Position numbers and translations under genes: made by a program. Shown in pieces: positions 6,919 to 49,317 of a DNA stretch of 64,000 nt. The notes beneath the pieces were generated by a model, which saw nothing but the letters and a program-made list of their open reading frames with translations, did not search any database and had not been told where the DNA came from. The stretch is from Erythrobasidium yunnanense (Eukaryota; Basidiomycota; Cystobasidiomycetes; Erythrobasidiales; Erythrobasidiaceae): assembly GCA_001600175.1 (NCBI GenBank), contig BCJC01000006.1, positions 1,801,973-1,865,972 of the forward strand, written 5' to 3'. Each line of letters opens with the position of its first letter. The first letter of the stretch is position 1.

Positions 6919-9567
6919 TCATGCGACATACTTCCTCTGTTCTCCCCTAGAATTGGTCGTCCAGTCTAAGAATTGCACAAACTTGTTCGCAGCCGCCATG
7001 CTAGGGCTTGTAAGTTTCCGTGCAGCGTCTTCCTCTTCTTTCCCAGTCTGATCGCCACTCTGTGCTCGGATGGCAGATGATGCACTACGCCATGAGAACA
7101 GGCTTGCACTTCCTCCAGCTAGTAAAGACCCAAGTAGATTCGCTCGCGCATGGTGGGAGTGCGAAGGCCCCGGGGCGCCATACGTACTTGGTTCTCGTAG
7201 GGGTGTAAGTGCTGCAGGAGGAGCTAAGGCGTGCTTCTCGAACCGTGGTGGAAGCCTTAAGCCTTCTTCCGCTAACTGACTATGCCGCGGCTCGTCGTAG
7301 AGAGCTCTCGCACTGCGTAGTTGTGCAAGTGCGCGTTCGTGAAACGCGATTTGCCCATCGAGAATCGTTTGTGTGGTCTTCCGTAGGTCGGCTTGCCGCT
7401 GCTGGTGCACCTGGCCGATCTCCGCAGATATGGCGTTCAGGACAGTCTCGAACTTGGCTTCCAGACCGTCATCAGCCTATAACAATACCTTGTTTAGCCT
7501 CTGTAAGAAGTATGGGAAAGCAAATGAGGCTTTACCTGCTGGCCCAGCTCGCGCTGCTTCAGGTATTCTTCCAGGTGGGATTGAGCCGATCTGTGCATGT
7601 CGACGAGCGCCTACAAAGGACGTCAACACTAGAGCTGAGGGTCCGAAGCCGACTTTACCTTATGCCGTTGATTCGGTGCATCGATCTCCGCCAGCGATTC
7701 CAGCGGGGCGAGCAGGACAGTCTGGGCCTATACACAGCCATATCAGCTTCTTCATTCTGGCCATATGGTACCAAGGACACTCACATTAGCTTCATAAAGC
7801 CCTGCTATCGTATTGAAAGCCCCCGCCGCTTCTTGTATCGCCTTCGTGCTGCTCAAACAGGCTTTGCAGTCATCTTTCCAGCAGAAAGCACCTTGATTAT
7901 CTTGCATACGATGTGCTTTTGCTAAGAAGCGAGACCGCTGGAGAGGGTCGACCGGAAGATCTACGCCTCGGGCAGACGGAGGGAGATCGATAGGGTCTGC
8001 GAGTCCTGCGATGAGCTTGTATAGACTGTGAGATAGTGTCTGTACGGCTGCACCAGTATCTGCAGTAGGAAACGTCAAGTCAGTCACTAGTCATACTTTT
8101 CTCACGGGTAAACTCACTTTGTGTGCTAGCACGATATTCAGCCAGACCATATTTAACTGCACCTATTCCTTGGCCTTTCTCCACTGCTTCTATATGCGTA
8201 GCGAAGTTCTCGACCTCTTCGCTTGACTCTTCGAGCAGGTCCGAAATGTCGAAACAGTTTCCATCGTGGTCGACTCGCTCGAAAAACCTGTATGGGTCGA
8301 TAGCGGTCGCACGTAGCAATCTACGATGTAAAGATCGCTGGTACTGCTATAATCGTAAAGCGAAGTCTCAGCTGATTTGATATTCGCTAATCAGGTGAGG
8401 GACAAACCGCACCTCTTCATCGTCGTTTGTCAGGAAGTCAATCATAGCTTCATGGCTCATGACAAGTGGATGTCTTATGATTCTCCTCAAGTATCGCTCC
8501 AAGTCCCTCCTGCGCACGTTCAGGAAATCCTGTGTGAACCGCCCAGTGAGTTTCTTTTCCGGCAATGCTGGTATACTGATCAATGGATAACTCATGCGGA
8601 GTATGGTGTCGAGATGCTGGAAGTGGTTATAGCGACGATGTACGCAATTATGCTTCATGATCCTTTCCACGTTGTTGTCGGTATCGATATTGTCCGAGTG
8701 CGATGAAGAGGAAGTGGTGCATGTGATTTCGTACGCCGTGTATTCACTTTCTTTGCTCGTTGAAGGTCGATGTGAATATGATGGAATAGAAAGGTGTGAT
8801 ACTAGAGAGCTTTCGATCCAGTGTCCATCTATGATTTGCGCCAGGTCTACATCCTCCTGCTCTGTATGAGCTTTGTCGTTTGAGAGTAAATATGCTTCAA
8901 CTGCGTTGTGCGGCCGCGTCAGATTAAGAGATGCTTGGCGAGTTCTGCTAGCTGTGGTCTGAGAACTCTCGATGATCGCTGCAGGGGACGAGGCAGTTTC
9001 AGGCTTGGCTTCGAGTACCGAGTCGTTCTTCGTCTCGGAAACATCTTCGGCCCTTGTCTGGGAGACATCTGGGTCCGGTAACAGCTTCAAGTCTTCGACT
9101 GTCTGACCCGACGTAACAATGCCCAGCCCGGTAGCGCTCGTCGTTGACATTGTGGCTGTCTCTTCGAACTTGGGAGCAGCTTGCTGCGGTTCAGGCTCGC
9201 TTGCGCTCACAGGCACAGCTTCGTTCAGGGTGCTCGGAACATACTGGAATCACGTTAACATCAGCTAAGAACTACAGCAGAGCACCACGAATGGCTTTCG
9301 TACCTCATAGAACCCTCTTGCTATAAGGCCGCGCGTCAATTGCGTAGTATCCTCCAGTTCCCTCTCGTTTCCATGCTCATCCACAAGCATTCCCAAACTC
9401 CATCCCTCCGTCATATCCTCGCAGAATATCAATATAGCATCGTCTTTGGCATAGCTTAACTCGCCGTACTTGCTTTCCCCAATGAAACTGAAGAGCGTCT
9501 TTGCGGGCAAAGGAGTTTCGAGGATGAGTCGGCCGTCGCTGGCGCTCTGTACGGTGAGTGTCGACAT
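6919..9567 (-). CDS. sorting nexin with SH3-PX-BAR architecture
   Basis: Membrane-remodelling sorting nexin of endocytic or endosomal traffic. Exons on the minus strand: 9567-9304, 9243-8408, 8320-8118, 8059-7785, 7727-7659, 7610-7536 and 7476-6919, about 759 codons. Exon 1 encodes an N-terminal SH3 domain (ALYDF-type core replaced by KTLFSF, then ELSYAKDDAILI and RGFYEYVPS). After about 170 low-complexity residues, exon 2 carries the phosphoinositide-binding PX domain (YTAYEITC, VHRRYNHFQHLDTIL, PALPEKKLTGRF, RRRDLERYLRRI). Exons 3-7 encode the helical BAR domain, with small exons joined in frame. A 69-base stretch near 7212-7144 has GT and AG ends and could be an optional intron. The order SH3-PX-BAR is that of animal SNX9/18/33; the last about 110 residues are not recognised. 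The start at 9567 is the first ATG before the SH3 fold. Confidence 0.85.
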
Positions 9568-9967
9568 GCAGGGTAAGCTGAAACTGATGGATTAGTGATG
9601 ACTTAGAGTACACGCAAAGACAAACGCCGTGTTGCGAAGGGGCCTATGATCTGGCCTGGCGGATTGGAAGGGGTCGGAGCTGGCTTTTGCATAATGTTGC
9701 GAACCGGACGTTGCAGAAACTTAGCATATCATTCAAAGACACTCTGTTACTCGTTGATGTCGTTGGAAGCTCGAAAAGCCGGCCAGAGAGATGTAGCGAG
9801 ATCGCGCGAAGAAGTTGCATGATCGCAGTGCTGGCTTCGTTGTTGCACAGTACGATATAGATTGGTGATACTATCCCGCGATGCCTCGTATTTCTGGCTT
9901 TCCTGTTGCTTTCTGTTCAAGCAAGCTCTTTCGACTTCTTCTTTCTCGTAAATCCAACTCTGCAATA
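9568..9967. promoter_or_regulatory. shared divergent promoter region, sorting nexin / SDH5
   Basis: About 400 bases separate the divergent starts of the sorting nexin (minus) and SDH5 (plus). I see no defined box. Part of the right side is pyrimidine-rich (CTTTCGACTTCTTCTTTCTC near 9926-9945), typical of fungal 5' leaders. An in-frame ATG at 9881 could extend Sdh5 upstream. Confidence 0.4.
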
Positions 9968-10813
9968 ATGATTCCCGCAACATCACGTAGAATGCTCCAA
10001 TCAGCAGCAAGAAGGACAACGACATTGCCTGCTGCAAGGCTCTCTTTTGCTGCTTCATCCCGTTATGCCTCCACCTCATCGTCATCCGCTTCTGCATCCG
10101 CATCGAAAATGAAAGAAGAGCGGGATGACACAGTGACTGCGCCTGGTCTGGCTGATGATCCATGGGCTATTCCCATGCAACATCCTGGAACGATGCCTGA
10201 AGAGATTCCACGAGCACCCGGTGAGTATGCACAACACAAGCCGGCGATGTCCGATGTCGTCTTGCAGCTCAAGCAGCACACCCATCTATCGTCGTTACAT
10301 GAGCTGACAGATATGCTGTGATGGTGCAGGCGGCGACTCGAAGCACCCAGAGGGCAGATCAGCCGATGAGGAAACAGAGACGATGCGCGCAAGACTTGTC
10401 TATCAGAGCAGGAAGCGTGGTATTCTAGAGACAGACTTGCTCCTCAGCACATTCATAGACTCGGGGAAGCTCAAGAATATGACGAGGGCAGAGATGGAGG
10501 AGTACGATAGGGTGAGCTCCGTATTGGTTTGTCTGTGCCAGGCGATAGGCTGAGGCAGGTGAACGTAGATGCTCACGCTCCCGGATTGGACTATCTACTA
10601 CTATGCGATAGGCAAGCAGAAGCCGCCTCAGGATTCAGAGTGGGCAAATTCCAAAGTGTTGGGTAGGCTCCGTTTCTTCTGCCTTGTCGTTTTCTACAAG
10701 CTGACTTCTTGTGAATGACAGCCGAACTGTCGAAGCATGCTGCTAATGAAGGGAAAGTGATGCGCAAGATGCCAAATGTGAATGCATATGGCGTTGCGGG
10801 TGTGCAGGGATAG
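9968..10813 (+). CDS. SDH5: succinate dehydrogenase assembly factor 2 (flavinylation factor)
   Basis: Mitochondrial matrix factor needed for covalent FAD attachment to the succinate dehydrogenase flavoprotein subunit (SDHAF2/Emi5). Four exons: 9968-10220, 10330-10511, 10569-10662 and 10722-10813, 206 codons. The N-terminus is Arg/Ser-rich with no acidic residue for about 45 positions, as in a mitochondrial presequence. The family core is clear: [20 protein letters not shown], then [22 protein letters not shown]-type sequence (here [15 protein letters not shown]) and a C-terminal lysine/asparagine stretch. Length and domain match the family. ATG 9881 is in frame and would add 29 residues; 9968 was preferred because it begins the presequence cleanly. 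Confidence 0.93.
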
Positions 10814-33900: not shown

Positions 33901-35659
33901 TCACCACTTTGATTCTTGGCTCGGAAGGTTTTGGTAGAATAGCCGGATAGTTTTATCATCGATCCTCTGCGCATGCATGTATACCGTTATTGTATTACGC
34001 GCCGTAACTCTGATCAATTTCTTGAATTCTGGAAACCCAGGCTGACCTTCTTTGATGTCTAGACATTGAGACATTGATTGGGATTGTCTTTAGCTGTATA
34101 AATCGCTGTCGTCAAGCTCTTGCAGCTTACAGGCGACTAGAAAGTGTGAAGCGTCCGATAATTCGAGCCTCTCTCCCGGATACTTGTCGAAAGTCACGGG
34201 AGCGATTTGCACCTTCACCGTAAACCGTTTGCCGCCCCCGAATAGCGCTGCTGGGATCAACTCGTCGTATTTCTTCCAGAATTGCCTATGCTTCTTGTCT
34301 ACTTCGTGTGCGCCGATGTCATCCAGACAGTGATCATACTTCAGACCTGACGGGTGTTCTGATACGCGGAAGTCTATGTGAGGGATCGTGTCCGGCTGCT
34401 TGCAGGGCTTCTTGTGCGCAGGCCAGTCTGTGACTTGACACGCTGGCAGTTGAACAGCAATCAGAAGTGAGCTATCAGGAGATGATGATGAGCGTCCGTC
34501 CTAGCAAGCATAACTCACCTCTCGAGCAATACGATACTATTCCACATCCTGAACAGGCCTGGTCCGCCTCTTTGCCGCAGCCGGCTGCGCATGCCACAGG
34601 TACTTGATACTTGGTTACGAGGCTCCTACCAAGATCGAGGACCGGCAATAGGAATGAGAGGTTGAAGTCCTTTTCCTCCTCTTCAAGATTTAGAGAAGGG
34701 CGATATTCTTCCGGAGCTACCACTTTCTGCGCGTTTTGTCGTAACAGATTGAGGAGCAGGTGCTGCTCGTTCAAAGTGCAGATGGAAGTGTTGGTCTGAC
34801 GACTGTGCTTTTTGTACCATTTTAGATCCGCCTCAGTTATCGTTATGCACGTCGTACTTCGCGTCACATGCTTGTACACCACGATGAGTAGGGGTTGTTT
34901 GGACTGTTCGCTCTCCGGTAACAGCTTTGTATTCAGATCGACAACTTGGTGAACCGTGACCAGTCGCATGAGAATTGCGCTGGTATCTTCTCTGTCAGTG
35001 AGAAAGAAGGCGCGCTGCTTTGCAACCGGAAGTGCGCACGATTGAGCGAAGAGTCCAACGGTCTGTACACATCGTCAGAAAGCGTAGCAGAATTCGCACA
35101 TGTTCTGGCCCAATACTTACCTGTCGCAAGTCTTCGAAAGCGTCAATCCCCTGTCTCATAGCTAGTGAGTCAAAGTATAACCATTCATCGCGTCGACCTA
35201 CGTATTTATGAAGACGATAATCGTCCACCTTCGCCATCATTCGCTGGTATCGACTTTGCGACCGGAACGCGCTGCCAACGAAGGCTTGATTCTCCTTGAT
35301 GCTGACATCCAGAACTGGAAGCTTGCCAGGATCGACTGCGAAAGGGCTGGCGAAGAAATAGTTCAGGCGCTCGCAAGCTGCAGGTATCGCAAGATCCAGT
35401 ATATAGCACAAGCCAGGAAGACACGTTAAAAGCGGGCAGAAGATGAGTAAGATGTTGGAACGTGAGACCAATATCGTATCGATGCGACATACACCTGAGC
35501 GCAAGCGTGAGACGTTTCTCTTTGGACTCTTCGGAAGTGCCAGGCAGGGAGGGAGACAAGCCCAGCGACTTGAACAGCTTGTCCTTCAGGCATCTGCATA
35601 ATCAGCAATCATCGTCGAAGCGTCCAAACGTCAGGAATCCGTACCCATTCAACCGTCAT
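33901..35659 (-). CDS. MYND zinc-finger protein, tandem family copy A
   Basis: First of four tandem paralogues. Exons: 35659-35645 (five codons, MTVEW), 35583-35493, 35377-35121, 35062 to about 34519, a MYND/C-terminal exon to about 34093, and a last exon ending at TGA 33903-33901. Order: exon 2 KSLGLSPSLPGTSEESKEKR; helix with ERLNYFFASPF; NEQHLLLNLLRQNAQK; then LSFLLP and a MYND finger CAAGCGKEADQACSGCG...YCS, split by an intron before CQVTDWPAHKKPC. After it come KQPDTIPHIDFRVSEHPSG, GGKRFTVKVQI and the family tail HAQRIDDKTIRLF...LPSQESKW. MYND fingers bind proline-containing partners; no SET or other catalytic domain is seen. The second exon seems to need an AAG acceptor (35586-35584). 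Function unknown; exon ends are by eye. Confidence 0.75.
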
Positions 35660-35930
35660 TCTGGGCGATGTAGCAAGTGCTTCGAGGCAATGATACGACG
35701 ATAACTCGAAAGCTAAGCTACAAGAGACCTGTCCAGCTTTGAAAAGTCGCTCGTCGGCTGGCCAAACAGGCCTTTGGTGGTCTGTGCTCGCGTCATCAGA
35801 CAGGCGCTGAAGAACTTCAATTCGACAACGATTCCATGATGATTGATAGTGGTCCACTGTGACACTCGTCCTGGACTACATAATGCGAGGATTGCTTGAA
35901 AAAGCATCCCGTAGATTGGCGATCTGCCCA

Positions 35931-35990
35931 TCACCATGCCAGATCCTGGCTAGGAAGATACTCTTCGTATACTCTGATGATATTAGACTG
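35931..35990 (-). pseudogene. 3' remnant of a fifth MYND-family copy
   Basis: On the minus strand this stretch reads NIIRVYEEYLPSQDLAW followed by TGA (35933-35931), matching the end of the last exon of the four family members (RVFHEDLPSQALTW, RVFHEDLPSEELKW, RLFYQNLPSQESKW, RVLLGDLPSQKMAW). It lies just 14 bases or so beyond the stop of copy B and has no recognisable upstream part, so it looks like the leftover end of a partly deleted duplicate. Short, hence moderate confidence. Confidence 0.55.
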
Positions 35991-36003
35991 AGAAGCATCC
36001 CGG

Positions 36004-37769
36004 TCACCAGGTCAATGCCTGGCTAGGAAGATCCTCATGGAAGACGCGAAGCGTCTGGTCATTGATTCTTTGCGCATAGATGAATAATCTTGCTCCATCA
36101 CGTCCAACTCTTCTTCCAAGTTCAGACATCTCTCGATAACCAGGTTGACCGCTGACTATAACTAGAGTGACAGACATTAGGGTAGTAGACAAAAGCCCCA
36201 GCATAAGCATGGACAGGAAAGCGCTCAGTCACGGATCAAGCAAGCTCACATGCCCATAGAGTCCGCGTAGTGTCGTATACACTCAGCGGACTGGTCATAT
36301 TCGGGATCTGAATCTTTACCATAAATCTCTTGTCATCACCGAATTTTGACGCGGAAATCAGCTCGTTATTATGCTTGTTGCTCGAGGACTTGTTGTGTTC
36401 TATGTCTATGGGAGCATCATTGCGATTGATTGTCGTCGTGAAATCCATGCCTGATGGATGACGTGACACTCGGACATCTATATGAGGTATAGTGTCCGGT
36501 TGTCGACAAGGCACTTTGTGAATAGCCCAATGCCGGGTTTGACATTCTACAAGGCGTAACACGTCAGTACGATCGCAAAGGCTACTGCTGTGCTCTGAAT
36601 GATTTCACCGCACCTTTAGAGCAATACGATGCTATTCCGCAACCAGCGCAGGTTAGATAGGCTTCTTTCGCGCAGCCAGCAGTACATATGACAGGAGCTT
36701 GGTATTTGGCCAAATGGGAGCTGCTGAGATTGTAGCATGGCAGAATGAAAGACAGCGCGAAATCTCTCTCGTCTGGAGCAAGCTCAAGCGCGGCACGATA
36801 GTCCTTCACCAGCTTCTCTGCGTTCTGCTGCAGCAGATTTAGAAGAAGATGCTGTTCCTCCAAAGGTGTCTCGGCGCTCTGCAGCTCTGTGCCTTGGTCA
36901 AACTGTCTCTGAATCCAGGACAGAGTAGCTCGAGCCGATTTAAGGAAGGCCGGACCCTTCCTGTCGTGCTTGTATATGACAACTAACAAAGGTTGTCGTG
37001 ATTGATCTTTTTTAGGCAGGTGTGTAGTGGAGAGGTCGACAGCTTCGCAAATCGCGACTACTCGTACGCTTATAGTACTTGTATCTTCTTTGTCCTGGAT
37101 AAGCAAGCATCTTTGACCCGTCCGAGGCTCCTCACATCTAGAAGCTATGCCTGCAAGTGCCTGTCGTACGGTACCTGTCAGCATGCCACTTATCTAGAGT
37201 AAGGTCTCACCTGTCTCAATCCAAAGAGAGTGTTAGGTCCCTTTGACGTATGAAGTCGTCAGCTAGACTGAATGCTTGTCCATGTAGTATTGAATTAGAC
37301 CTTACGTCTTCTCGCCCAAAAGTGCCAGTCACGGATTCTGCCAAGCTACCGGAAATGAATGCATCGATGACAGACTTTTTCCCTGCAGAACTGCTAGGAT
37401 CCAGTACTGCCAGCTTGCGAGGATCCACGATGAATGGCTTCACGAAGAAATAGTTCAGACGTTCCGAGCCTTATTGATGCGGTTTATAAGTCGGTGTGAA
37501 GACATGATGATATGAATTGGTAGGGAAGAGAAGTAAAGGGATAGATTGAAATCAGGTGATCATGTCCAATAGAAGTGTCGCGATGCGACATACACCGAAG
37601 CGCGAGCCTGATGCGTCTCTCTTTCGACGCTTCGGAGGTTCCAGGCAGGGACGGAGACAGGCCCAGCGCTTGAAGCAGCTTGTTCTACATGACACCAGGT
37701 GAGTTAACGGCATCGGACTTTGCTACCCAGAACGTCAAGATTGCCAAAACGTACTAGGTCAAGAGCCAT
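36004..37769 (-). CDS. MYND zinc-finger protein, tandem family copy B
   Basis: Second paralogue. The first exon is again five codons (MALDL, ATG 37769-37767), then NKLLQALGLSPSLPGTSE and KERRIRLALR with the same phase-1 donor (T then GTATGT). Next are the SERLNYFFVKPFIVDP exon, RCLLIQDKEDTSTISVRVVA, LLVVIYKHDRKGP, EEQHLLLNLLQQNAEKL and LSFILPCYNL. The MYND first half reads CTAGCAKEAYLTCAGCGIASYCSKG, and the second half after an intron CQTRHWAIHKVPC. Then KQPDTIPHIDVRVSRHPSG (first Gln/Pro as seen), DKRFMVKIQIP, YDTTRTLWAC and, in the last exon, GQPGYREMSELGRRV, YAQRINDQTLRVFHEDLPSQ and a TGG before TGA 36006-36004. No catalytic domain recognised. Its ATG is about 230 bases from copy C's stop. 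Confidence 0.78.
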
Positions 37770-38001
37770 TCCTTTCCTCCGAGTTGAAGAGTTTCTGATT
37801 GTGACAAGTCAAAGTATAAAGCCTAGTAAGTGTAAGGGCAAGATGTATGGACTAATCTGGCCCAAGCTTTGCGTTATCGAGAAGGACATTGCCAAAGAGA
37901 CCGGGCGCGTCCCGTGCACTTTCACAAGGCGTGAGTGAGACAGCTCGAACGAACCACTACCTACACTCTCCTCATAACGAAGAATGTCACATCAGAGCTC
38001 C

Positions 38002-39787
38002 TTACCATTTCAACTCTTCGCTAGGAAGATCCTCGTGAAATACGCGGAGAGTGTTGCCATCAATTCTAAGGGCATGAATGTAGATGAAAGTCACAATCGT
38101 CCTACGTTGAAATAGTCTTCTTCCGACATCTCTGATCTCTCGGAAGCCAGGTTGTCCCGTTAAGATGTCTATAGCCATAAGTGACACACCCAATGGGAAG
38201 CATCTCAGCCTCAGTAAAAGGAATAGCAAGACATATGCTTACACGCGTTCAAGGCATGCGTAGCATCATGCACGCTGATCGGCCAGTCTGGCTGAGGAGG
38301 AATCTCTATCTTGACCGTAAACCTCTTTCCATCTTCACACACATTTTCAGGCACCAATTCGGTCTGTCGCTTTCGCAGTTCGACCTGATGTAACAGGTCT
38401 ATAGGAGAGTCGTTCATGTCTAGCGCCATTCGCAGGGGACCTGATCTGTGGCTCTCTGGATGAACGGACACCTTGATGTCGATGTGTGGTAGAGTGTCCG
38501 GTTGCTTGCAGGGAGGAACCTTGTGCTTCGGCCAATCTTCCTTTTGACACTCTAGGGGACAGTGATGCAGGTTATGGCCAGCGCTTACCGTCAGCGTAGG
38601 TATATGGTAAAATCAGGCGCATCTCACCTTTGGTACAGTAGATTGCGATCCCACAAATTGCGCACGTCAGATCTGCTTCCCTTCCACACCCTGCCGCACA
38701 TTTCACCAGACCCTGATATCGTGCTAAATCACAACCATTGAGACTGAGGCACGGTAGCAGAAAGGACAAAGTGAAATCGTTGTTTAGCCCGCTGAGCTCT
38801 AGAGATTGGCGGTAGTCTTTCGTAAGCTTCTGCCCGTTCTGCTTTAGGAGATTCAGGAGAAGATGCTGCTCTTCTAGAGTAGACGAGATTTTTTCTAGTT
38901 TGACGTTGTCTTGCACAAGCTTGTGCATCCAGGAAAGACTGGCTTGGGGAGTGCCCAGCGTTTTGATTGAGAGTGTCTTATCTTGCTTATACATAACAAT
39001 GAGCAGAGGTCGCTTCTCCTGTCGCTCCTCCGGCAGGACGACCTGAGTGCTAAGGTGAACGACTTGATGTACAGCGAGCACCTTCAGAAGGATAGCACTT
39101 CGACCTTGTTTGTCTTGCAAAACCGCACAACACTGATTGTCCGGAGCTTGCTCGCAGGCGAGAGCGATTTTTAGAAGGGTCTGAGTTCTTCTTAGCCAGA
39201 GCTCCCATACGCCGACCCTTCGCACGACTTACCTGCTTTACATCAATAAACGCATCGAAGCCCTTTTATCAAAACGGAGTTTAGCCTCACAAGGGGAAGA
39301 ACAGCCTGTGACAAACGTACATGAGTACGCTTTAGATCGTTTCCCTTTCCCGCGACGGTATCTAGCCGGCTAAATGCCTCAGATATAGACTCAGACTCTT
39401 TTCCTGCGTTGTTGAAACGTGGAAGCTGTCGGGGATCCACTATGTAGGGTTTGTCGAAAAAGTAGTGCAGACGCTCGGAGGCTTATATTGTCATTGAATG
39501 CGGGCGTGTCGCGAGGTGAGGGTACATTGAATGCGGGCGTGTCGAGAGGTGAGGGTACAAGTCGGTCAGCAGGCCAGGTCCCAGTCATTCCGCGGGCAGG
39601 CTCCACGACATACATCTCAAAGCGAGTGTCAGACGTCTTTCTTTAGATTGTTCTGACGTAGTCGGCAAGGATGGAGCCAGCTTCATTGACTTTAGCAGAT
39701 TGTTCTAGACACAAGTTGTCATCAGTATGTGAGCAAAAATTAGGATAAGAACGTGTGAAAGATCTAGCTTACCAGATTGACAGCCAT
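38002..39787 (-). CDS. MYND zinc-finger protein, tandem family copy C
   Basis: Third paralogue. Five-codon first exon MAVNL (ATG 39787-39785), then NNLLKSMKLAPSLPTTSEQ and KERRLTLALR with the same T|GTATGT donor. The following intron (about 39617-39487) contains a 33-base tandem repeat. Next exons: SERLHYFFDKPYIVDPRQLP, KGFDAF, CCAVLQDKQGRSAILLKVLA, LLIVMYKQDKTL, EEQHLLLNLLKQNGQKL, LSFLLPCLSL. MYND first half CAAGCGREADLTCAICGIAIYCTKG, second half ECQKEDWPKHKVPPCKQPDT. Then IDIKVSVHPES, GKRFTVKIEIPPQPDWPISV, HDATHALNAC and the last exon with GQPGFREIRDVGRRL, IHALRIDGNTLRVFHEDLPS and a TGG before the stop at 38004-38002. Same architecture as copy B, to which it seems closest by eye. Function unknown. 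Confidence 0.78.
39492..39557. repeat. two tandem 33-base units inside an intron of MYND copy C
   Basis: Units 39492-39524 and 39525-39557 start CATTGAATGCGGGCGTGTCG and end GGTGAGGGTA; they differ by one base (C versus A near the middle). They lie in the second intron of copy C, just upstream on the plus strand of its acceptor. Introns of copies A and B lack it. Confidence 0.9.
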
Positions 39788-40110
39788 TTCGTGCAGCGGA
39801 GTAGTCGTCCCTTTCAGGTCAGATCAGTCAGAGATAGCTGCAGGGATGTGAATGGTCGGAGAGAGAAAGAAGATTTCCTGTCGAACGCCGCTTTTTGTTT
39901 CTCGTCGGACAAGTTTTGCCCAAACAAACCGATCGCGGACCGTGCGCCAGTATTGTCCAAGAAACCAGCTTTTCGAGCTCAGACAAGGGAGACAGGTTAA
40001 GACTCACTGAGAACTGCCGAAGAACTCGCAGCGGCTCTAAGGGTGCTGAAGGCATACTTTCGCCCAAGATGCGCATTGTATTGTCAGAACCAGACAGCGC
40101 TTCTGCTTCT
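39788..40110. other. spacer between MYND copies C and D
   Basis: About 320 bases between the start of copy C and the stop of copy D. Open frames exist on both strands but none carries family motifs. It presumably contains copy C's promoter. Confidence 0.35.
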
Positions 40111-41536
40111 TTACCACGCCATCTTCTGGCTGGGCAGGTCTCCAAGCAGTACTCTGACAGTAACGTCATCCATGTTTTGAGCGTATATACACAGTTTTAC
40201 ACGGTTTTGAGCTTCCGACACCCCGCTGTCTGATCAAGCCAGTCAGATCCCGGAAGTTAGGGTTAGTCTTGTGAATGACTGCGAACCAATCGGCAGAGCG
40301 GGATACGCATGAGAAGAAAAGAGCCAGTTAGTTTTGACACCAGAGGGCGGACGTCTGCCTGACTTACAGCCATCTATGCCTTTCCCAAAGATCCTCAGCT
40401 TTCGACCTCTCAAAGCGGTAAGCTTTGCGATGAATCGCTTGCCGTCTTGAAACACTATGCGGACTTCTGATCCGACAGGACCGAATGCATTTTCTGCAGG
40501 ATCGCTACTTAGCATCTTCGCCTTAATCGGTATTCCTGCCTTGATGTACGGTTGCCAAGCGACATGCTGGACTTCGAGATATGGTTGCTGTAAAACTTTC
40601 GTACACTCAGGAGTGTGTGTGTCCCAATGCTTGAGCTGACAGCCTAAGTGGAACATATAATTCTGGTAAGTATCGAAGGACTGGAAGCAGCGGCAACTTG
40701 CATACCTTTGGAGCAGTAGTGGGCGGCACCGCATCCTCGGCATTGTAAGCGCCCTTCCTTGCCGCAGCTAGGGCAGAAACGAGGCATCTGATGCTGTGCC
40801 AAGTACTCCGAAGTGAGATTGTAGCACGGTAACAGGAAAGAAGGCTCGTAGCCGGTCCCAATAGCAGGGCTACCTATGCCTCGCTTATCTGGTATTGCCA
40901 AGAGGTTCTGTTTGGGAGGTGCTTCAGGAGTACCGCCGTGCCCAGATTCACTGTGATTGTGTCAGGATTGTCCGCTATGGCTTTAGCAGCATATGCTGTA
41001 TCGTGTTTCTGATCGTTTTCGCCATCACGTGAAGCCCATACTATGTTGTAGGAGACAAATAGCATAGGCTGCAGCCCGCTTCCAGCCTTCTTAGATTGGC
41101 ACTTGTCACTGGCGGTCGCATAGGTAACCTCATGTGCAGCTAGTAGGCGTAAAGAGATGGTACAGCGACCTTGCGGATCCTTCAACACGACCGCATTTGA
41201 ACGAGCTTCTGCATCGTACTGCTTTGCAAGCTTTAAGAGGAGCTGAAGACAGCGAGTTGTTCAGCGGACTATTACAAAGCTCTGAGACGTCTCACGCACA
41301 TGTTTGAGGCCATTGAAAGCATCCAGAGACGTCAATGAGCCTCGCTTGTTGGGCATGCCATTCGCCGTCTCAGCCGCAGCTCCTTCGTCGCGAGCTTTCT
41401 CGAAGGGCAGTACCACTGGTCCAGCTTTCCATGTGCGTAGTTTCCACGGCGTTATCTTCGCATGTGGCTCGAAGTAGTAGTTCAATTTTTGTGCGGCTGC
41501 AGGATAGCGAAGGACGAAGATCGAAAGATCAGCCAT
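40111..41536 (-). CDS. MYND zinc-finger protein, divergent tandem family copy D
   Basis: Fourth and most divergent paralogue. Using ATG 41536-41534 it begins MADLSIFVLRYPAAAQKLNY, then YFEPHAKITPWKLRTW, LTSLDAFNGLKHV, LKDPQGRCTISLRLLAAHEV, and a stretch ending LLPCYNLTSEYLAQHQ. The MYND finger is canonical, CPSCGKEGRLQCRGCG...HYCSK, with the second half CQLKHWDTHTPEC after an intron in the same place as in A-C. Then DGKRFIAKLTALRGRKLRIF and, across a phase-1 intron, the tail CIYAQNMDDVTVRVLLGDLP, SQKMAW and TAA 40113-40111. The KQPDTIPHID segment of A-C is missing and replaced by unrelated sequence. Upstream (41702-41573) an open stretch with LSRLRATLEKTAAFRMLL may be the counterpart of exon 2, but I could not join it in phase, so the start is uncertain. 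Confidence 0.65.
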
Positions 41537-42167
41537 GCTTGCATTGGAGGCCGCCTAAAGTAATGTCTACCTCTAAGAGCATGCGAAATGCGGCGGTCTT
41601 TTCCAACGTCGCTCGTAGACGTGACAGAGGGACCAAGGCCGAAGCCTCGTAGCAACAAGTCGCGACTAGTCTCCCGTCCAGACTAGTTAGAGCACCCCTC
41701 ATTAGCAGAATGTACAGGTGTATAAGCTGCTCGCAATGCATACCCAGCCTAATCTTGATGCTACCTCCTTCGATAGAAGCATTCTGCCCTTGCAATCCGT
41801 AAGGCCTGGCACACGAATGGTGAGAGGGAAAAAAGGTGGGACGATGCTACACAACGTATGCGCGATAATTCGGATCGCAGGTTTCGTCAGGCATCTTCTG
41901 CTAGGTCAGACGACCGACTTGACGGAACGGTAGACCAGTGTCGTTTGCGCAGGGCCAGGTATCGGAAGTATCAGCATGGCTACGCGAGAGTCCTTCTTTG
42001 GTCGCGATGCAGAGCTGCGAGCTTCGAAGTCTGTAGACCCTCACGGCACTTCCGGGTTGCATTAGGGATCTTGACAGGAAGCTTTGTTGAGACCAGGACG
42101 ACTTCGCGACGGCATGAAGGACATGTTCAGGCAATAGGTAAGGGTCACTTTGGATTTGTGTAGCAGC
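41537..42167. other. spacer between MYND copy D and the Sly41-type gene
   Basis: About 630 bases. The left part (minus strand 41702-41573) is open and may belong to copy D. The rest probably holds the two divergent promoters. There is a GGTAAG at 42137 and a GACAG at 42186 that would make an intron, but the frame before it has no usable start, so I left the carrier as starting at 42168. Confidence 0.35.
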
Positions 42168-47889: not shown

Positions 47890-49317
47890 TTACAGACGCT
47901 CAATTGGCTCTTCAGGTCCGGCCTGGAGAATAGCAGCAGTGTCAGCTTTTAAAGATAAGATGCCAGGAAAAAGCACTCACTGGGACGATGCGTGTTGGGT
48001 TGATCTGAGGATGGCTCGTGTAGTAGTGGATCTGAGTGTTACGAACAGTGTAAGTTGTGCAATCGATAAGCGAGAACAAAGAGTGACACATACCTTGATG
48101 TGATCAAAGTCGGTCGTATCCTTGAACGCAGGGTAGTTCCAGTAGAGCTTCTTGACCCATCTATTCAGTTCAGGATAGTCGTGTCTGATGGTTCCTGTGC
48201 ACTTGAAGTGACCGGTGTAGACGGGATCGTAACGAATAATGGTGGTGTAGAGTCGAATGTCCGCTTCCGTGAGTGTGTCTCCGATCAAATAGTCTTTGCC
48301 TTTCAAGAGATCGTCCAGTCTCTGCAGAGAAGCATGCAAAGGCTTGAATTCTCCCTCGTACGCTTCTTGGGTAGTCGCAAATCCGCACTTGTAGACGCCT
48401 GCGGGATATCTCAGCATGGATTCCTGTCAATTCTTGCCAGCCTCGCTTACCATTGTTGACGGTGTTGTATACCCTAGCAAACAAAAGAAACGAAGATGAG
48501 GATGTTAGTGTAAAGACCCACTTCAATATGATATGCAACTCACCAGTCATTGAGCTCATCGATTTCCTTTCGAAGCTTCTCGGGGTAGTAGGTTACGCCT
48601 TTGTACTTCTGGTCGATGAGATCGTCGAAAGCGGTGTTGAGGAAGCGAATGATCTCTGAACTCTCATTGCTGACAATGGTCTCTGTCTTTGTATCCCAGA
48701 TGATAGGTACGGTAAAGCGGGCATCGTAGTCTGGCTGTGCCTTGAAATAGAGATCGCGGAGCTTCTTGACGTTGTAGAGGGTCTCTTCAGGCTTGGTGTA
48801 CGGTACTCCGCCTTTAGGTTGACCTTGACCTTCGTAGTCTTCCTGTCCTTCCCCATCGGCTGTTACCTCTGTCAGCCATGGATCATCATCGAAATCCAGC
48901 TACATACCTGTGAACGACCAGCCCAATTTGCCCATGTAAGGATGTACAGTAGAGACGCCTAGTCAGTACAGGTATTAGCTTGACATATCTAACTCGAATT
49001 GAACCGGAGCTTGGCATACCCATCAGGTCCTCGAGCCCTTTGAGCTTTCTCACGATGAGCGCGCGATGAGCCCAGGGACATGCTAGAGAAACGACGAGGT
49101 GGTATCTTCCTTTCTCAGGCTCAAACTTGCCGCCTTTCTCGATGACATCCCGGAACGAGCTCTGTTGACGCTTGAAGTGACCGCCTAAAGCCAGTTCGAA
49201 GGACATATATCAGCGTACTGAAGATCGTTGACCCTGTAGGGCTCTTCTGATGTATGCTACCTTACCATCGGACTTGGATGACCAAGAAGTGATGTCTTTC
49301 TGAAGGGCCAGCGTCAT
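47890..49317 (-). CDS. ECM4: Ecm4-type S-glutathionyl-hydroquinone reductase (xi-class GST)
   Basis: Thioredoxin-fold enzyme that removes glutathione from glutathionyl-hydroquinones. Minus strand, five or more exons. Signature active site LACPWAHRALIVRKLKGL with the CPWA catalytic Cys, preceded by GRYHLVVS. The N-terminal domain continues with STVHPYMGKLGWSF, YNVKKLRDLYFKAQPDY, FTVPIIWDTKTETIVSNES and SEIIRFLNTAFD. The C-terminal helical domain has VYNTVNNGVYKCGFATTQEA, YLIGDTLTEADIRLYTTIIR, YDPVYTGHFKC and NPTRIVPAGPEEPIERL, the usual family ending. The first coding exon used here (ATG 49317) reads MTLALQKDITSWSSKSDG and joins GGHFKRQQSSF in frame. An upstream ATG at 49388 followed by a donor GTAAGT is an alternative start. 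Probably cytosolic or mitochondrial. Confidence 0.92.

Follow-up and report, generated by a model that had tools for sequence, protein, structure and literature searches.

The window analysed here is a stretch of 64,000 nucleotides (nt) of Erythrobasidium yunnanense DNA (assembly GCA_001600175.1, contig BCJC01000006.1, positions 1,801,973 to 1,865,972 of the forward strand), which sits on C6, one of the 10 contigs that make up a genome of 20.9 Mb. On its minus strand, within window positions 33901-41661, lie four copies of one gene, at a spacing of ~2.0-2.1 kb, for a protein with a MYND zinc finger, which is a widespread protein-binding module. The copies are lettered A to D in order of increasing coordinate; their second exons start at 35583 (A), 37684 (B), 39704 (C) and 41661 (D). 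An initial annotation of this DNA had described a minus-strand row of four equivalent genes that arose by local duplication. The row was found in its place and the local origin is supported, but only A, B and C are intact, and D looks decayed. In a genome search with gene B, exon 5 of C was matched at an expectation value (E) of 5.6e-48 and that of A at E 2.8e-46, exon 6 of C at 3.4e-20 and that of A at 1.7e-17, and the shorter exons at 2e-9 or weaker; by these matches, the likeness among the copies is far above chance.

Structure of the gene copies

We modelled A, B and C as spliced genes of seven exons, each with a single open frame. Gene A (33901-35659, minus strand; 441 amino acids) comprises exons 35659-35645, 35583-35493, 35377-35202, 35150-35121, 35062-34519, 34442-34131 and 34058-33901. 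Gene B (36004-37769, minus strand; 433 amino acids) comprises exons 37769-37755, 37684-37594, 37469-37306, 37240-37211, 37160-36614, 36546-36250 and 36161-36004. Gene C (38002-39787, minus strand; 441 amino acids) comprises exons 39787-39773, 39704-39614, 39481-39321, 39262-39233, 39180-38628, 38551-38243 and 38168-38002. From first to last, the exons measure 15, 91, 161-176, 30, 544-553, 297-312 and 158-167 nt, and the introns measure 50-132 nt. The six introns fall at alignment columns 6, 36, 95, 105, 291 and 401, in phases 0, 1, 0, 0, 1 and 1, respectively, and these columns and phases are the same in all three genes.

It should be noted that the models were built from sequence alone and that the splice sites were placed by hand as GT-AG with the other copies in view (especially the first acceptor of A), so that the GT-AG ends of all 18 introns, and part of the intron agreement, follow from that choice. 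What does not follow by construction is that usable sites are present at those places and that three full frames are kept open. Protein B has 46% identity to protein A, and protein C has 48%. The ordered motifs that had been named as common to four copies occur in A, B and C with small variants, which are APSLPTTSE, ERLHYFF and LPSE in C and LSFILP and DKRF in B. Intron 2 of gene C contains a 33-nt tandem duplication, 97% identical, at window positions 39492-39557.

The models are least certain at their first exon, which has five codons, since a 5' exon may have been missed farther upstream. At ~110-145 bases upstream of the starts of A, B and C there is an element that reads GLFG in translation (35745-35775, 37875-37905 and 39900-39935, minus strand); A and C carry TGTTTGG-like words there, and B carries a variant. 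Shuffled sequences reached the observed element score in 10/100 (A-B), 3/100 (A-C) and 1/100 (B-C) trials, and in 99/100, 97/100 and 48/100 trials for the pairs with D. We found no consistent start or splice site for the element, which may be either a conserved leader or a 5' exon that the models lack. We also considered it as a promoter element shared across MYND arrays of this genome (described below), and did not adopt that idea; stricter TGTTTGG patterns had no match in the array on contig C1 and one or two each in those on C3 and C5.

Copy D (40111-41661, minus strand) consists of recognizable exon pieces and is diverged and probably decayed. By likeness to A-C, its pieces run from 41661 to 41571, from 41496 to 41300 and from 41242 to a stop at 40874, which lies in the exon 5 frame ahead of the finger; the 3' part consists of ~40850-40706 (first half of the finger), 40643-40368 and 40278-40111. 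In this last exon the entry frame stops at 40166 and the conserved tail lies in another frame. Exon 2 of D measures 91 nt, as in A-C, and introns 2, 4, 5 and 6 are recognizable with GT-AG ends, whereas intron 3 is absent and no AG stands at the homologous exon 2 acceptor. The common intron positions and phases that had been described for four copies thus hold for all six introns of A, B and C and fail in D at least at intron 3. The motifs of D are likewise partial: PSVT stands in place of PSLP, followed by KLNYYF, SFLLP, the finger and DGKRF, and QHLLLNLL was not seen. We considered whether unusual introns might account for the frame breaks, which is conceivable for the first; for the second, none was found by eye. 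With two or more breaks in its frame and one acceptor lacking, D has most likely decayed.

The finger and its flanks

Spliced proteins A, B and C all exceed the gathering cut-off of the MYND family (PF01753, 22.7 bits), with 42.7, 34.8 and 39.1 bits, respectively; their other Pfam matches at E up to 1 are zinc fingers on the same stretch, all below their own cut-offs. As the initial annotation had proposed, the finger is split, in each case by intron 5. It occupies residues 262-299 of A (34402-34591, minus strand), 259-296 of B (36506-36686, minus strand) and 260-298 of C (38508-38700, minus strand). The eight zinc ligands (C4-C2HC) are invariant in the three intact copies, and the first zinc pair is C-x3-C. 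Also invariant are Tyr282, Gln288 and Trp292 (gene A numbering), which coincide in profile alignments with the Tyr, Gln and Trp that the fingers of ETO and DEAF-1 carry. A structural study reports that these three residues are strictly conserved, do not bind zinc and are important for the binding of peptides by BS69, ETO and DEAF-1 (PMC4742278), and a second source supports the role of the Gln and Trp (PMC3555993).

A profile search of the Protein Data Bank (PDB) with the A-C family returned 49 sequences at E up to 10, the best being ETO (E 5.2e-07) and DEAF-1 (E 2.8e-06). All matches at E up to 0.012 are zinc fingers and include the finger of the query: ETO, DEAF-1, ZMYND10, ZMYND8, SMYD and methionine aminopeptidase 1. 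No significant PDB match lay outside the finger region; matches to RanBP2 (profile positions 209-241, E 0.27-0.36) and septin-6 (184-230, E 0.46) did lie outside it and were set aside as not significant. Pfam, searched with the spliced proteins at E up to 1 (the HMMER filters drop most matches above 0.1), gave no family outside the finger stretch, and NCBIfam gave no match for any of the three. Searched exon by exon, Pfam gave a few unrelated families below cut-off, such as RibD_C on exon 5 of A. In these libraries, then, the flanks match no well-described MYND family, and the A-C family is, as judged by such searches, without a name.

Whole-genome searches with gene B and with the flanks of C, which score only the best candidates, pointed to the same locus. 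Of the 22 matches to gene B, 17 lie in the window array and the other five extend over the finger, the match starting at residue 214 in one case; all nine matches to the N-terminal flank of C, and all six to its C-terminal flank, lie in the window array. Among the candidates scored, the flanks were therefore found nowhere else in the genome. When profiles of the flanks were run against 1699 frame fragments from the other three MYND arrays, a set that leaves aside four single MYND genes, the best match had E 0.84. Pattern searches for relatives gave 127 matches in prokaryote genomes and 153 in viral contigs, none of which was confirmed, and Rfam, at its gathering scores, found nothing in the window. 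Among the matches listed in a search of open-licence literature, the titles and abstract openings held no recognizable account of the family or of tandem MYND arrays.

Structure prediction was made on contiguous exons only. The exon 5 model is a weak alpha/beta model (order of helices, H, and strands, E: H-E-E-E-H-E-H) with a mean predicted local distance difference test score (pLDDT) of 55.8 and a predicted template-modelling score (pTM) of 0.58. Foldseek returned 644 matches to it at E up to 10 and none at E up to 0.001, the best having E 0.19 and a template-modelling (TM) score of ~0.2. The exon 6 model (mean pLDDT 39.0, pTM 0.19) was discarded, and none of our conclusions depends on either model. 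With regard to the novel domain that had been suggested on either side of the finger, the flanks are indeed conserved and match no curated family, but the exon 5 model gave no significant fold match and that of exon 6 was unusable.

Divergence among the copies

The array had been taken for a recent expansion, and this was not borne out. Fourfold-degenerate sites differ at 58/90 positions for A-B, 64/90 for A-C and 63/95 for B-C (64-71%), which is near saturation. Synonymous divergence (dS) by the Nei-Gojobori method is 4.8 for A-B and not computable for A-C and B-C, and nonsynonymous divergence (dN) is 0.47, 0.48 and 0.44 for A-B, A-C and B-C. In the same order, conserved degenerate codons differ in 111/195, 125/200 and 122/204 cases (0.57, 0.63 and 0.60), where codons drawn at random by usage would be expected to differ in 0.64. 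Because the silent sites are near saturation while the protein is conserved, the A-C proteins are, on this comparison, kept by purifying selection, and the duplications would be old, or else the silent sites fast-changing.

Among the longer exons, conservation is highest in exon 2 (67-73% of residues identical, versus 39-54%). At the DNA level, A and B are 82% identical over 109 nt that span exon 2 and run into the start of intron 2 (35480-35588 and 37581-37689), and the figure for C is 66%. The likeness of A and B in this stretch may be a trace of gene conversion.

Surroundings of the array and MYND genes elsewhere in the genome

A fragment that resembles a last exon and ends LPSQ..W before a stop lies at 35934-35987 (minus strand; profile match 8.7 bits), just downstream of gene B, and is likely a remnant of a lost or partial copy. 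It was also picked up by repeat family D6, in which 73 nt of the gene B tail take part. The fragment and the decayed copy D suggest that copies have probably been gained and lost over time. The neighbours of the array in Pfam are Ribosomal_S19, a 60S acidic ribosomal protein (acidic P protein) and a TPT carrier, in agreement with the earlier placement of the array between ribosomal and carrier genes.

A six-frame scan of the genome for MYND fingers gave 27 matches: six, seven and nine (one with an internal stop) in further tandem arrays on contigs C1 (415.7-423.4 kb), C3 (670.9-679.1 kb) and C5 (771.8-784.1 kb) (loci L009-L015), one in the window array, and four in single genes. This count is a lower bound, and A, B and C, found only after splicing, add three more. 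The one match in the window array is the finger of D, the only one of the four to be listed, we think because it has the usual C-x2-C spacing.

The other arrays resemble the window array in their tandem MYND layout, but the partner regions tested are unlike those of A-C and unlike one another. Proteins A-C match the C1, C3 and C5 arrays only around the finger, reaching at most ~60 residues upstream; a C1 protein likewise matches C3 and C5 only around the finger, and for pieces without the finger (one from C3, two from C5) the matches are confined to the array of origin. A TPR match scores above its cut-off in one of two C3 pieces, and one C1 and three C5 pieces gave no other confident Pfam domain. 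When the four single MYND genes were compared by tblastn, one was matched, over the finger.

A separate observation concerns contig C10, on which two matches to the STE3 pheromone receptor (9109-9981 and 47901-48773) occupy mirror-image positions with equal scores; the contig is either palindromic or a fold-back assembly artefact. The genome also gave 42 matches to Fungal_trans, a fungal family, and none to the basidiomycete pheromone family, a negative that carries no weight.

Discussion

We propose, with a probability of roughly 55%, that A, B and C belong to an old, locally duplicated family of intracellular adaptors, in which the finger would grip a PxL-type peptide of a partner protein and the flanks would make a second contact. 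Each intact protein consists of an N-terminal region (residues ~1-258), the MYND finger (~260-299) and a C-terminal region that begins near residue 300. A short PxL-type peptide, which contains proline, would lie in the same groove of the finger as the ligands of BS69, ETO and DEAF-1, and the conserved flanks would recognize a second partner, or pair with another copy; two proteins would thereby be brought together by a two-sided adaptor. An intracellular location is suggested by the lack, by eye, of a start resembling a signal peptide. The invariant zinc ligands and the Tyr, Gln and Trp support a finger that grips peptides, conservation of the flanks points to a second contact and hence to an adaptor, and the absence of any catalytic family from the flanks in the Pfam, NCBIfam and PDB searches is consistent with it. 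Certain observations weigh against the proposal. With C-x3-C as the first zinc pair, the finger might have a different groove; the fingers of BS69 and DEAF-1 differ from each other in ligand preference and charge (PMC3555993), so the ligand of A-C is not predictable; and no significant match outside the finger region backs folded partner domains, the exon 5 model being weak. As a speculation, the PSLP motif of exon 2, which is invariant in A-C, absent from D and has the P-x-L core of known MYND ligands such as PPPLI and PXLXP peptides, might be a ligand of the family's own fingers, in which case the copies would bind one another.

With ETO (CBFA2T1), DEAF-1 and BS69/ZMYND11, proteins A-C have in common the zinc ligands and the three peptide-contact residues; they differ in the C-x3-C pair, in having no recognized flanking domains, and in carrying the finger in mid-protein and split by an intron. 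The match to ZMYND8/RACK7 extends upstream of the finger (two chains, positions 211-307, E 5.9e-05 and 7.6e-05), yet Pfam found no bromodomain, PHD or PWWP family in A-C. We count Fuz1 of Ustilago maydis and Mub1 of yeast among the closest known systems; on this side the sequence comparison covered the Mub1-like frame described below.

The long conserved flanks, together with the mixed alpha/beta order of the weak exon 5 model, might instead represent an enzyme, or a domain that binds a ligand, diverged beyond recognition, with the finger as an accessory, as in the SMYD methyltransferases. The match of exon 5 of A to RibD_C would point the same way, but at 12.6 bits (cut-off 24.1; E 0.12) it is below threshold, and the spliced protein does not repeat it. 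We consider such a domain unlikely: neither a SET domain, which is split around the finger in SMYD proteins, nor any other enzyme family turned up at E up to 1 when A, B and C were searched as spliced proteins, the SMYD matches in the PDB are confined to the finger, and Foldseek gave exon 5 nothing better than the match at E 0.19.

The genome also contains a 767-amino-acid open frame with a MYND finger (L018:371-2674), which we take to be Mub1/SamB-like. Its presence would favour a role for A-C as substrate adaptors of a ubiquitin ligase, but gene B and this frame, which is one open frame and not a full gene model, share only 22 finger residues (11 identical; E 2e-04 in a single comparison), other pieces matching at E 4.5 or worse, and the first zinc pair of the frame is, by eye, C-x4-C, unlike the C-x3-C of A-C. 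Thus, although yeast Mub1 with Ubr2 is a known ligase complex that includes a MYND protein (PMC3567142), we regard a similar role for the window family as improbable. Least credible of all is that every copy is a decaying duplicate without function. The broken state of D and the remnant of a tail next to B speak for it, but in A, B and C the frames are complete, and splice sites and conserved residues have been kept even though silent sites are near saturation.

By its sequence, then, the window family is of a familiar kind, an orphan family of putative MYND adaptors. To our knowledge, basidiomycete MYND genes mostly have no assigned function, and the present locus is a clean case, in which three intact old paralogues with invariant residues stand beside a decayed copy as internal contrast. 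MYND genes are numerous in some basidiomycetes, as seen in the zf-MYND numbers for seven Agaricomycetes (41 on average), Rhodotorula glutinis (26), Sporobolomyces roseus (11) and U. maydis (2) (PMC4469406, Table 3) and in the 25 MYND gene models of Moniliophthora perniciosa (PMC2644716). In the portions of these sources available to us, such sets appear as counts, not as families or arrays, and their likeness to A-C is in numbers only.

A wider reading, which we regard as quite unlikely, is that the genome holds a repertoire of MYND adaptors, in at least four arrays on four contigs, which have different partner regions and only the finger in common, and which would form a diversified recognition or signalling system. 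If the finger was repeatedly joined to new partners and then amplified, this would be a diversified system and not one ordinary gene family. With three further arrays that carry other partner regions, whether the finger was repeatedly amplified for a common purpose becomes a testable question.

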